A stretch of DNA of 64,000 nucleotides, from contig OX387204.1 in NCBI GenBank assembly GCA_947561715.1, positions 2,547,001 through 2,611,000 on the forward strand. Reading direction: 5' to 3'. The notes beneath the pieces were generated by a model. It did not search any database, was not told where the DNA came from, and saw nothing but the letters and a program-made list of their open reading frames with translations. The stretch is from Ascidia mentula. Taxonomy: Eukaryota > Chordata > Ascidiacea > Phlebobranchia > Ascidiidae. The first letter of the stretch is position 1; each line of letters begins with the position of its first letter. Made by a program: the position numbers and the translations under genes. Positions 4,746 through 55,628 of this stretch are shown in pieces.

Positions 4746-6261
4746 GATTGTTGGTGGGCCTTATTTTAAAACTGAACTTCAATTTTTAAGCCTTAAACAA
4801 TATGCTAAACAGATAAAAAAAGAGAGTAACTCTTGTACATTAATATACATGACTACATAAAAAAAATAATCTACCGGTATGGTATCCAACCTCAATATGA
4901 ATAGAGTATGACCATAACCCTCATAAAAATAAACGTAATATGACACCAATTTTCTTTCGCTTTGTCTGTGCCGTGCTTTTTTCTTCAACGTCTGGAAAAG
5001 TTACGTCTCGTCTGGCACAAATTTATTGATGCCGGATGCTTACAGTTTCATTTTCAAAAGCAAGCAACGTACGTATGCAGTATGCACTGCAGGCCCCACG
5101 AGGGAGGAGTAACACTATCAAATGAAAGGCTATGGATGTCGCGGAAGGGATTTGTAGAAGACACAAGAGATATTAGCATACATTATTCCAACTATTTTGA
5201 TACGTTTGTTGTCCAAGTAGCTTATACAACCTGTCCCTCTATAGTTACAATTTCGGATCAACATTAACTTGAACATGGGCGCCCGACTCGATAACCTTCA
5301 TGGTTTTATCGATGTCCGTGCCATTTTATTCCTTTTGTGTATTGTTCATCAGCGTAGTTATCTTTTTTTGCGCAAAAAACACATGATTTAATTTGATTTG
5401 TACATCGCGGTTTATCCCTAGTCTGTCCGGGGTCTCGACTATTTGCAGTCCCTGGTACTTACGCCAAATTTGCGTAAGATGCGTTGCTTGTTTGCCATTG
5501 CAACTTACTTTGTCGAGCAAGAACCTTCATATTTTTATGGGTTTTTGTCAAAGAGGAAACAAAAAATATTTTTGGTGTGTGGACACTTTGTAGGCTAACT
5601 GCCTGCAGTTCAAAGCGAAATCCGAAGGCTTCCAAAAACACTGACGCCAATGATGCAGCTTTGTGTAATGCACATTATGGAATACACAAACAAGTTGACG
5701 AGAAATGCGATAAATTATGATCGATTTGTCAAAAAAGCAATCATATGATACAATGGCCCATGTCCAAATTTGTCACAATGTTGAGAATTGCACTGAAGCA
5801 GAATATTAGCAAAAAAATAGCCATAGGAAATAACTTCGATTGCACACCGATGGGTTAGCCTCAAAGCATATGTTGCTCTTGCATGAGAAAAAGAGTTTGC
5901 TTGCACAGTTTTCACTATATGACATACTAGCTCTTGGCACAGAAAATTTTCATTTGGTGCACAGATTGTGTGAACATTATAGGCAGCTTTTGATTGAGTA
6001 AAGGCACTTTGGAAAAAAATGAATACAGGAACATGATTGGTTACAAATGCAAATTAAACTCATGATTTTATACACAGTAGTACAAGTCAGTGTTGTTCTT
6101 TGGGGAGTTTAAATACAGTTCTAATTCTATAATCTACGATTTACAGAAACCAAGAAAAACCCTAAACAATTGCTAATTAAATTTGTATCTATTATTGACA
6201 AAACTAAAGCTAAGCAACCATTTAAAATTTTTCAGTTCAATCTTTTTCACCGGGAACCGTC
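4746..6261. other. Intergenic: WLS upstream region and DPYS/CRMP 3' flank
   Basis: Holds the WLS 5' flank and the presumed DPYS/CRMP 3' UTR. Minus-strand AATAAA hexamers occur near 5327-5332 and 5017-5022; either could end the DPYS/CRMP transcript. The open frame at 4962-5267 (+) matches no family I recognise and lacks credible splice context. Moderate CpG at about 5280-5500. Confidence 0.4.
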
Positions 6262-53500: not shown

Positions 53501-55628
53501 TCTGTGATTGGTCCACACTATCACGTGTCTTTTGTCGATTAGGAGATGAAATAATTCTCTCGGCGAAATCGCTTCGTGTTGCCGGATTGCAAATATTTTC
53601 ACCCTCAGTTATGAACAAAAAATTGCTTTCCATATATCAACGAAAAATAACTAAAACGTACATAAGTTTTATAGAACCTAAACGTTCTTTTCTTTTGTGA
53701 ATTTGTATTTCATTTACATCACGAGTTCCCAACGGTAACTGATGAGATGTTTGTTTTTCACAGCCGACAGTGACAGCGATTTGCACCATGAGCGCAAGGA
53801 AAACAAACGACTTCAAGCGAAGCTTCTTAACATGCAGCGCATGCTGGGTCATGACGTAAACGGTAGGCAGGATTTCGCCAAATATTTGGGATTTACCGCA
53901 GGGAGAAAGTGGCGACACCTTTGTAACAACAGCGGCATTCTTCTAGAAATTTCGGCTGCTTCTTGTTAGCGGATTTCTAGGTTTCTTTTGCAACGAACAT
54001 CAAATTCCTTTTTGTAAACACTTGCCGTAGAGAAATGCCGTTAAACATGTCTGTGCAGCAAATAAAACTTGTTTGCCACTTCCCCCCTTTTAAGGTTATC
54101 TCAGTTAATCTTTGCTACAAAGGCAAATAACAATCAATTAAATTTGCAATCAATGCGCTTTTTACCTAAATCAATTAAATTTTTAACAAAATTAGGTTGG
54201 TTAAAAAAATCTGGTTTACAAAAGCTGTTTAAAGACCTGAAAGTATTTTATTGTCATTACGCAGACAATACTGAGGTGGTTGGTCAACCATCGCCGCGCA
54301 GTTCTATTTCGTCACCTCGCACTGCCCATGAAAACCAACTCGACAACTCCACGACGCCCACTAGCGAGTCGTCGCCTACCGCCGGATACCCAACAGCGAC
54401 ATCTTACGATGGTTCAGTGTTTACCGGTCGTATTTCTGCCGTACAAACCAATGGTAAATATTTATTTTTATAACCTAATAAAATACAGATGGCCACTGTT
54501 TCGACCTAAAAGGTCTCATCAGTGCAGCTGGTGTGACTATCAGACGACTTTGCTGACCAAACGGCCAAGCAAAAACTTCCACTTTGTGGTGACTATACAG
54601 TCACCGTCATCCGTTGGGCACCAAACTAGGTGCAACCTTACGGAGCAAACAAGGTGGAAACACTACGGCCAAGCAAGCTCAACCAATAGTGCCGTCAGGC
54701 CCCGTTATTGGCTCCACATTGCTAATAAAATATGTCCCCCATATATATTTGATGCTAATGCTGTAAAGAATCAATGGACTTTTAATAGGTTTTATTACTA
54801 CGCTACACCATAACCCACTTAAAACAAAAGCTTACATTCGCACATAGCTGCATTTTCGCCAAAATTTTATTTTTCAGCCAACCAAAACAAATTGTATTTT
54901 ATTTTCAGCCAATCAGAGAACCACTCCATCTCCACAGGGCGAGCTTGGCGGACTCACAAGTGCCAGCAATGCAAATAACAGCAACAACTACACGTCAGAT
55001 GAACAGCCGAGTCCCGAATTCGTTCGTCGTAGCATAATTCCAGGTGCGTGTTCCGCTACAGTGGTTAAATTAAACCTGTGTCATTAAGCTTGGGTACGTC
55101 TATATAAACTTTACTGGACGAATTACTAGGTTGTGGATATACAACCGCTTTAAGTATGACGTGGATATCTTTGGAGGTTTTGAGAGTAGATGCGAAAATC
55201 CAAGAACCTAAATTTCAACGTGTACTTTGTTTTCAGAAGGAAGAACCCCCGACCTTGCCATTGACCTTGGTATGGGAAGACAAGAGCGCTCTGATCACAT
55301 GGCTTTGCAAGGTGGGCAAACTCTATATTACGAAGAATTTACCACACGTTGGGTGCTTAAAATTGCTTTGTATTCGCGTTAGAGCGTGGATCCACAAACA
55401 GATTTGTTATCTGAAAAGTTGGCATATGAAGTTGGTGATGTAACCGAAGCCATAACTGTTTTACTAAAATAGAGCTGTAAACACCAAACTTTATGCATAA
55501 AAGGTTTGTAATTTTTTTTTCAATTTTAGCCGATGCAAGACTCTACTTCAAAAATTCTCTGCTCTACCAACCTTCGGCCTCCCAATAAAACTCAACTAGA
55601 AAAGCATCTTCTTTGCTGTCTTAGCTAA
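20537..55628 (+). CDS. DACH: Dachshund (DACH) Ski/Sno-family transcription cofactor, complete
   Basis: Eighteen coding exons: 20537-20620, 25180-25317, 26377-26478, 27767-27873, 38462-38561, 38802-38886, 42848-42951, 43064-43231, 43700-43810, 44360-44433, 45771-45931, 48889-49110, 49778-49861, 53764-53862, 54265-54453, 54909-55043, 55237-55311, 55531-55628; about 711 residues, phases consistent. An in-frame TAA abuts the ATG, fixing the start. DACH is a nuclear cofactor of the Pax-Six-Eya network. The DACHbox-N/Ski-Sno domain spans residues about 38-150 (VENTPANNECRTVDLRG, CNVEQVRILRGLGAIQPG). SRPGRPPKR follows, then a low-complexity middle with seven alanines (310-316). Box-C (NLLTNIQGLLKVAADNA, about 457-473) leads into coiled coil to about 546. 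Exons 15-17 add Ser/Pro-rich sequence before the conserved end motif DARLYFK. The last 25 or so residues are less certain: an out-of-frame TAA lies at 55586. Confidence 0.96.
24074..24084 (+). promoter_or_regulatory. Candidate internal TATA box in DACH intron 1
   Basis: TATATATAAGG directly after a GC-rich stretch and 1.1 kb before exon 2, whose first codon is an in-frame ATG. A short-N-terminus DACH transcript could start about 30 bp downstream. Motif and context only. Confidence 0.35.
24309..24321. promoter_or_regulatory. Perfect palindromic RFX X-box
   Basis: GTTGCCAGGCAAC: two perfect inverted GTTGCC half-sites around one base, the high-affinity form of an RFX X-box. It lies 225 bp after the intron 1 TATA motif. 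Confidence 0.4.
25180..27873 (+). other. DACH: DACH exons 2-4: DACHbox-N DNA-binding domain
   Basis: These three exons encode residues 29-144, nearly the whole Ski/Sno/Dac winged-helix-like domain. Almost every residue of AFDLFLKNLVGGLHTVYTKL and of the VRILRGLGAIQPGVNRCKL block matches vertebrate DACH1/2. Exon 2 begins with an in-frame ATG exactly at its acceptor (25180), so a transcript starting in intron 1 could encode a protein lacking only the 28 residues of exon 1. Confidence 0.9.
25318..27766 (+). other. DACH introns 2 and 3 (around exon 3)
   Basis: Introns 25318-26376 and 26479-27766 flank exon 3 (26377-26478). I see no further exon, repeat or recognised site. Both are less CpG-dense than intron 4. 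Confidence 0.5.
28441..28476. repeat. 36-nt inverted repeat with ATF/CREB half-sites
   Basis: Arms TGATGACG (28441-28448) and CGTCATCA (28469-28476) pair over 8 bp. Inner arms ACATTT and AAATGT pair over 6 bp, with a 5-nt loop and one small bulge. Each outer arm contains TGACG. Confidence 0.7.
35172..35222 (+). promoter_or_regulatory. Candidate internal promoter in DACH intron 4
   Basis: A GC-rich block (GCGCGCGGCGCCCCCTCC, 35173-35190) is followed 25 bp later by TATAAAG (35216-35222). A transcript starting here would lack the DACHbox-N exons. I see no matching first exon. Confidence 0.25.
39158..39175 (+). repeat. (TTA)6 microsatellite
   Basis: Six tandem TTA units in DACH intron 6. Confidence 0.85.
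39253..39280. repeat. AT-rich perfect inverted repeat
   Basis: TTATATATGT (39253-39262) and ACATATATAA (39271-39280) are exact inverted copies around an 8-nt loop; probably simple-sequence DNA. Confidence 0.6.
43232..45770 (+). other. DACH introns 8-10 with small exons 9 and 10
   Basis: Introns 43232-43699, 43811-44359 and 44434-45770. No other feature supported; the second half of intron 10 is AT-richer than its neighbours. Confidence 0.5.
45932..48888 (+). other. DACH intron 11 (3.0 kb)
   Basis: No exon or repeat recognised. CpG-dense at about 48200-48660, AT-rich at 47880-48060. Confidence 0.5.
48889..49861 (+). other. DACH: DACH exons 12-13: DACHbox-C and coiled-coil start
   Basis: Exon 12 ends with the box-C core LLTNIQGLLKVAADNANLQEK. 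Exon 13 is a charged heptad-like helix (LKLSQERQLRENAERKLQ), and exon 14 (53764-53862) continues it with KENKRLQAKLLNMQRML. In the family this part mediates Eya and co-repressor contacts. Confidence 0.88.
49385..49397 (+). promoter_or_regulatory. DR1 nuclear-receptor-like site in DACH intron 12
   Basis: AGTTCAAAGGTCA is a direct repeat of AGTTCA and AGGTCA with one-base spacing, matching the HNF4/RXR DR1 consensus. Motif only. Confidence 0.3.
52157..52170. promoter_or_regulatory. RFX X-box-like site in DACH intron 13
   Basis: GTTTCCGTGGCAAC has two inverted half-sites separated by two bases, within the X-box spacing range. Confidence 0.3.
52712..52730 (+). other. G-quadruplex-capable tract
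   Basis: Seven G, A, three G, A, seven G: enough for four G3 runs with one-base loops on the sense strand of the DACH pre-mRNA. Confidence 0.6.
54484..54535 (-). ncRNA. Hammerhead self-cleaving ribozyme core (type I)
   Basis: Reading the minus strand: stem I strand AGCTGCA (54529-54523), CTGATGA core (54522-54516), stem II GACC / GGTC with loop TTTTA (54515-54503), GAAA (54502-54499), stem III CAG / CTG with a 7-nt loop (54498-54486), then T and A (54485, 54484) as U16.1 and H17. Every conserved core position is canonical. The 3' strand of stem I (TGCAGCT) is at 54852-54846, giving 7 bp, then an internal loop and four more pairs (54535-54532 with 54844-54841). DACH transcripts carry only the complement, so the ribozyme cannot act in the host pre-mRNA. 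Confidence 0.85.
54484..54852 (-). mobile_element. Retrozyme-like element: 369-nt insertion ending at hammerhead cleavage sites
   Basis: Lies antisense in DACH intron 15 (54454-54908) and makes up about 80% of it. On the minus strand it begins TGCAGCTATGTGCG at 54852 and ends at 54484 directly after CTGTA, the predicted hammerhead cleavage site. The first bases pair with the stem I strand lying just before CTGATGA near the other end, so the ribozyme is complete only if the two ends are joined. That is expected of a copy made from a self-cleaved monomer RNA. The body is noncoding with other foldable parts: an 18-nt hairpin at 54588-54605 (7-bp stem), GCACC/GGTGC at 54618-54633, and a 12-nt direct repeat ACGGCCAAGCAA (54561, 54665). 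No target duplication seen. Retrozymes of similar size are known in metazoans; family membership here is inference. Confidence 0.75.

Follow-up and report, generated by a model that had tools for sequence, protein, structure and literature searches.

Two-armed insertions of a hammerhead retrozyme family in the ascidian Ascidia mentula point to insertion by Penelope-like elements

Introduction

Retrozymes of metazoans, as set out in the main text of Cervera & de la Pena 2020 (PMC7229834), are short non-coding tandem units without long terminal repeats (LTRs) that carry a type I hammerhead ribozyme and are flanked by target-site duplications (TSDs) of more than 4 bp. Which enzyme spreads them has been unsettled. 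That article names Penelope-like elements (PLEs) as strong candidates, and the available portion of a 2024 review (PMC11722881) reiterates it; the grounds are that PLEs and retrozymes both have type I hammerheads, both form tandem copies and co-exist. Here we describe an insertion with a hammerhead core at positions 54486..54721 of a 64,000-nt stretch of the Ascidia mentula genome (assembly GCA_947561715.1, contig OX387204.1, positions 2,547,001 to 2,611,000; hereafter the window), together with its family in the same genome. It is highly probable, in our judgement, that the site is a truncated, non-autonomous hammerhead retrozyme and that its family is inserted by a PLE through dual priming at two RNA sites, A and B. 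The interest lies in the family rather than in the window site: its insertions bear the mark of PLEs, and this signature is direct genomic support for the candidacy published before.

Two PLE systems offer the closest comparison. According to the available text of Frangieh et al. 2024 (PMC11167929), the PLE of Anolis (Poseidon/PAc) cuts and extends both strands of its target, and its reverse transcription has two neighbouring internal start points, which delimit a genomic tail of 30-40 bp. Two start sites, extension on both strands and a hammerhead upstream of the start sites are common to this element and the Ascidia retrozyme. However, the Anolis PLE encodes a reverse transcriptase (RT) and an endonuclease whereas the retrozyme encodes neither, its cut motif is ATT instead of a GTTT-like flank, and that text reports no apparent difference in start site between the strands, whereas each classed Ascidia insertion has one A and one B end. 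In Adineta vaga, the consulted portion of PMC3846280 describes Penelope copies with inverted pseudo-LTRs (pLTRs), a tail on the 3' end of one of them and short TSDs, as in our insertions, and also an instance where a PLE acted in trans on another sequence, as in our proposal. Unlike here, those TSDs measure 8-10 bp and the inverted junctions are attributed to self-priming.

The Ascidia copies share with the metazoan retrozymes of PMC7229834 the short non-coding tandem units, the type I hammerhead and the TSDs; a two-armed, one-tailed anatomy is not described in the consulted portion of that article, the main text of which contains no mention of a tunicate, an ascidian, a urochordate or Ciona. 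Another tunicate, Didemnum vexillum, likewise has type I hammerheads, at nine loci for which the available portion of the report (PMC8704543) gives no element, TSD or retrozyme context. Among the matches listed from the open-access literature, a scope beyond which most subscription papers lie, we found neither a PLE insertion signature in retrozymes nor a tunicate retrozyme.

Results and Discussion

A family that fits the metazoan retrozymes

A 25-nt pattern of the hammerhead core has 2,376 copies in the genome at no more than two mismatches, and the reversed-pattern control has 0. The tandem units are 283-286 nt long and join as CTGTC followed by TGCAGCTTATACAC. The loci that we fetched contain 30 distinct complete hammerheads (reversed control, 0) with a stem III of 3 bp, a stem I mostly of 7 bp and, in tandem units, a type I layout. 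Coding capacity is absent, the longest stop-free runs on the repeated unit being 73 and 81 codons. The GC (guanine plus cytosine) content is 47.5% in one monomer and 50.8% in the window copy; for metazoan retrozymes PMC7229834 gives values below 50% in its text and below 45% in the legend of its Figure 1. With a type I core, tandem units in the range of about 170-400 bp, no coding capacity and TSDs of more than 4 bp, the family fits, as judged from its sequence, a non-autonomous hammerhead retrozyme of the metazoan type, its monomer being about 284 nt long. Plant LTR retrozymes have a type III hammerhead, LTRs and a 4-bp TSD, where this family has a type I hammerhead, tandem units and a 12-nt TSD. 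Nor is it a PLE itself, given a monomer without RT, GIY-YIG or any long frame. A genome-wide search with the Rfam model RF00163 (73 of 27,659 candidates scored) was uninformative, since it gave no signal in any control genome. Next to a PLE palindrome, at 5793-6001 of locus L073, lies a second retrozyme subfamily, whose stem III is longer.

Two inverted arms and one tailed end

We compiled 59 distinct insertions, 40 through homology search and 19 drawn from the 30 motif hits that come first on chromosome 1. Loci L005, L042, L059-L065 and L069 were dropped as the same insertion as another locus, and L047, L052 and L053 because their arm patterns marked them as look-alike duplicates. At a threshold score of 9, a TSD is present in 43 of the 59 insertions compared with 6 of 346 mispaired flanks; the 12-nt TSD of L030, recognised by eye and missed automatically, is excluded from the 43. 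The commonest length is 12 nt (18 insertions), and 13 nt occurs in 10.

Two inverted arms whose outer ends are both 3' ends make up 41 of the 59 insertions, and 10 of the 19 in the motif-drawn subset. The inner 5' ends of the arms meet in the middle of the insertion at variable positions, and the outer 3' ends cluster in two groups, A with 38 ends at monomer positions 9-19 and B with 32 ends at 36-49. Among the 43 insertions with a TSD, the outer ends pair as A with B in 28, A with a 5' end in 10, B with a 5' end in 3 and in another way in 2 (the window copy and L024); A with A and B with B were each found 0 times. Wherever a TSD is present and both arm ends could be classed as A or B (28 insertions), one A is therefore combined with one B, an outcome with a probability of 4e-9 under independent and equal choice. 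The motif-drawn insertions with a TSD (n=11) comprise seven A with B and four with one 5' end. L001, L002, L016 and L021, one of which is the window copy, carry a short inverted B arm of 16-21 nt that matches the monomer and was not classed as two-armed in the pair count. The A/B rule suggests that each of the two DNA ends has its own fixed priming site on the RNA, which bears on the mechanism of PLEs in general.

Tandem and inverted arrays do occur, as they would if recombination or a DNA transposase had spread the copies as satellite or foldback DNA. Such an origin at the DNA level is very improbable given that the arms differ in their outer ends and lengths, and hence are not terminal inverted repeats, and that variable inner 5' ends go together with clustered outer 3' ends. 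Foldback self-priming was rejected as the source of the inverted arms, which end at different sites and either of which may be the longer (L036).

The template of the arms

Most arms start beyond the cut site and continue across its junction, so the template was a circle or an uncut multimer. This leaves room for a dual-primed insertion from an uncleaved, linear multimeric transcript in which the hammerhead has no role in insertion. The available text on the Anolis PLE lends it weight, as insertion in vitro was unaffected by hammerhead mutations and unprocessed RNA is called the dominant substrate there (PMC11167929). On the other hand, metazoan retrozyme RNA is reported in PMC7229834 as monomeric circles plus linear forms, and the window copy ends at the cut like the product of a cleaved template; neither point is decisive. 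We regard the linear multimer as a serious possibility to which we incline slightly less than to its opposite.

Comparing common variants between the opposite arms of an insertion (L017 excluded) gives agreement 165 times out of 167, where 5,000 permutations averaged 150.3 and never exceeded 159. Within an arm there are 5.5 differences per kb; the figure rises to 7.0 when opposite arms are compared and to 14.7 when insertions are, this last comparison covering L001-L041 only. Because the common variants are shared, the two arms probably had a common template, either a single RNA or several RNAs from one source, and mutated afterwards. These figures replace an initial same-template count with a weak difference (Wilcoxon P 0.048), in which 11 of 15 insertions were closer and L004 and L014 far against; it was rejected as distorted by junction overlaps and by a multi-base deletion counted per base.

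Target flank and predicted hairpin

Outward of the TSD the consensus reads GTTT, with G in 43% at +1 and T in 77%, 79% and 50% at +2 to +4; the +1 base is biased by the definition of the maximal repeat, and the bases beyond it are unbiased. TT at +2 and +3 was found in 54 of 86 half-sites versus a proportion of 11.6% (0.116) in the surrounding DNA. When the L007 monomer is folded as a circle, the minimum-energy structure of this one copy is predicted to pair positions 19-24 with 46-51. Site A lies just 5' of the predicted hairpin and site B on its 3' side.

Penelope-like elements of the same genome

The genome has at least 121 GIY-YIG matches (best 150 of 382 candidates scored), often as close minus-then-plus pairs with their 3' ends outward. 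Locus L073 encodes RVT_1 and GIY-YIG in a 4.8-kb palindrome. L074+L075 (chromosome 4, 6133000-6148400) comprise about two minus and 2.6 plus units of 2,870 nt that are 99.95-100% identical, and this autonomous PLE array looks as if one circular or multimeric RNA had been copied from both sides. Both insertions have 12-nt TSDs and one arm that is longer and tailed. Nine of ten further inverted PLE pairs show a clear TSD of 12-14 nt and consist of one tailed and one untailed arm. L104/L081, which had not been chosen as a pair, is another one-tail case with a 15-nt repeat. L092/L093 lies in a 138-nt tandem repeat that makes its 13-nt shared word unclear; its ends at 630 and 588 follow the one-tail rule, and it is not counted among the 12 PLE insertions with a clear TSD (12-15 nt), all 12 of which obey that rule. 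As a control, a shared word of at least 12 nt near the ends was found in 10 of 10 true pairs compared with 1 of 90 mispaired ones. The gap between A and B in the retrozyme arms resembles the PLE tail.

The PLEs form three families (L073-L099), each with its own minimal hammerhead and, by eye, a palindromic stem III of AGCU or ACGU. Measured in two of the families, the motif precedes A by 53 and 61 nt. Its pattern is present in the 3' flanks of five of seven GIY-YIG matches (L076, L077, L078, L081 and L082) and absent from those of L079 and L080, neither of which is classed as a PLE. Minimal hammerheads of PLEs were reportedly treated by Lunse et al. in 2017. The Ascidia PLE motifs appear by eye to be of that kind, whereas the retrozyme hammerhead differs with its short stem III and longer stem I. 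Two tandem transfer RNA genes were observed at 1073-1220 of L077, near the PLE 3' end.

The TT flank is found in 6 of 10 half-sites of PLE family 2 and in 0 of 8 of family 3 (Fisher P 0.013); family 1, with two insertions, has it in 0 of 4. Six single 3' ends of family 2 without their other end were left out as ambiguous, and only L081 gained its other end (L104). In this small and partly post hoc sample, family 2 appears to be the best candidate for the partner of the retrozyme. One tail per insertion, a similar TSD length and a flank common to one PLE family make up a shared signature, which renders the link between retrozymes and PLEs testable.

An enzyme of the LINE (long interspersed nuclear element) type with ordinary twin priming would also, from general knowledge, leave inverted 5' junctions and TSDs. 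It would hardly explain why there are two fixed internal start sites, why each insertion has one tail and why no single 3' end is fixed, features that all recur in the local PLEs, nor why a GTTT-like flank occurs at either edge of the target, and we consider it unlikely.

Proposed mechanism

From these comparisons, the retrozymes of Ascidia mentula were most likely inserted by a PLE that primes at the two edges of a staggered break. Tandem genomic copies would be transcribed, and the type I hammerhead would cleave the transcript into units that are possibly circularised. A Penelope-like enzyme with RT and GIY-YIG could then bind the RNA near the hairpin just 3' of the hammerhead, and its endonuclease could make a staggered cut with a spacing of 12-13 nt and a preference for an outward GTTT-like flank on each side. 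Both cut ends would prime reverse transcription on retrozyme RNA, one at A (9-19) and the other at B (36-49), on the two flanks of the hairpin, and each primer may copy around or along a repeated RNA to yield tandem units. Where the two complementary DNAs (cDNAs) meet head to head, inverted arms would result whose 3' ends face outward and of which exactly one is tailed. For the window copy, whose arm expected at A stops at the hammerhead cut, the template may have been a cleaved linear RNA. The arm anatomy, the TSDs, the A/B rule, the variants common to opposite arms, the target flank and the matching anatomy of the local PLEs are observed in the genome, and we infer the circular template, the mobilisation in trans and the binding at the hairpin.

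Several observations weigh against this interpretation. Retrozyme and PLE loci (L073-L082, 3' ends included) agree in layout and have no sequence match, apart from a retrozyme copy that lies inside L073. The PLE pairs were selected for inverted GIY-YIG hits, so that no frequency of two-armed PLEs can be derived from them, and L089, the untailed arm of one of the nine pairs, stops at 515, far before the usual untailed site. The flank of family 2 was first spotted by eye in four copies, two of which are within the 10 half-sites. In the retrozyme, the TT flank is not strictly symmetric, being present on both sides in 16 of 43 insertions and in 27 of 38 A sides and 15 of 32 B sides, and G at +1 reaches only 43%. 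At the threshold used, 16 of 59 insertions have no TSD and were left unclassed. They include L017, which at about 961-1540 has two A ends, no TSD and flanks that form an inverted palindrome; an inverted duplication or an assembly artefact are options for this locus. Of 45 rare-variant cases, only 3 (including one in L017) are common to both arms, although this is still more than between insertions (42 of 7,431). The Rfam hammerhead models stayed below their gathering scores, the best hit being 33.0 of 56.3 bits for RF03152 in L073, and the retrozyme stems are nearly invariant within the family, with too little variation for a test of covariation.

A wider proposal is that animal retrozymes are stand-alone parasites of PLEs. 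Their circular hammerhead RNA would mimic the PLE tail and be inserted by a particular PLE family (here family 2), a dimer of whose enzyme might cut at a near-symmetric AAAC-N12-GTTT site while holding one RNA, so that one DNA end always primes at A and the other at B and each copies round the circle. Because the flank is two-sided in so few insertions, we offer this proposal tentatively, as something that could be true but that we doubt a little more than we believe.

The copy in the window

The whole insertion (54486..54721, minus strand, 236 nt) is framed by an exact 11-nt TSD, CTAATAAAATA as read on the plus strand, with its left copy at 54475..54485 and its right copy at 54722..54732. The main part is 91-100% identical to dispersed genomic copies. 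The long arm (54486..54705, minus strand) covers monomer positions 63-282 of 284 and is 5'-truncated. The short inverted arm (54705..54721, plus strand, 17 nt) is identical to monomer positions 24-40 and ends at the B, or tailed, site; base 54705 can be assigned to either arm. At 54486..54522 on the minus strand lies the hammerhead core, with CTGATGA (54522-54516), the 4-bp stem II GACC/GGTC, GAAA and the 3-bp stem III CAG/CTG, just as an earlier note on this DNA had recognised. A covariance model picks up this hammerhead at 20.6 bits, under the gathering score of 48.5 for RF00008.

The 5' strand of stem I, AGCTGCA, lies at 54523..54529 (minus strand). Its partner TGCAGCT is present in tandem copies and missing here, because the cut is directly followed by flanking intron and not by TGCAGCTTATACAC. 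Without this substrate strand the copy should be dead as a ribozyme, and it is probably an ordinary, catalytically dead member of the retrozyme family. The earlier note had stressed its near-perfect ends: the long arm does stop 1-2 nt before the cut site (position 282 of 284), an ending that is unusual for the family, as it is found in only 1 of the 43 TSD-supported insertions, and that looks as if cleaved linear RNA had been the template.

The same note had read the site as a 369-nt genomic copy of one self-cleaved circle, running from cut to cut (54484-54852). Two features favour this, namely a TGCAGCT at 54846-54852 that is complementary to stem I and the other end so close to the cut. The TSD, however, encloses only 54486-54721, and the piece taken as the 5' portion of the unit (54733..54852, minus strand) is intron beyond the TSD, outside the element, with a single genomic match. 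The 369-nt unit has 108 matches in the genome (best 40 of 2,006 candidates scored), all of which except the window's own begin at unit position 121 or later; its first 148 nt match once and its last 249 nt or so many times. No scored copy reaches 54852, and the copies end elsewhere and continue differently. That other copies do not share the 54484 and 54852 ends is the kind of outcome which the note itself had named beforehand as speaking against its unit. Monomers measure 283-286 nt and differ after TGCAGCT. The distant TGCAGCT does exist, but it lies outside the insertion and is a chance match of 7 nt: the word occurs seven times per strand in the window, and by simple arithmetic the chance that some 400 bases contain it is about 4%. 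We therefore give the circle copy next to no credence. The broader suggestion of a small animal retrozyme-like element holds in its type I hammerhead and many genomic copies, though not in the borders of a single unit.

The gene around the insertion had been assigned to DACH, and this is corroborated by Ski_Sno/DHD matches on the plus strand at about 25.2-27.9 kb of the window, on the strength of which the host gene does look DACH-like. The window lies on chromosome 8, and the retrozyme insertion is antisense to this gene.

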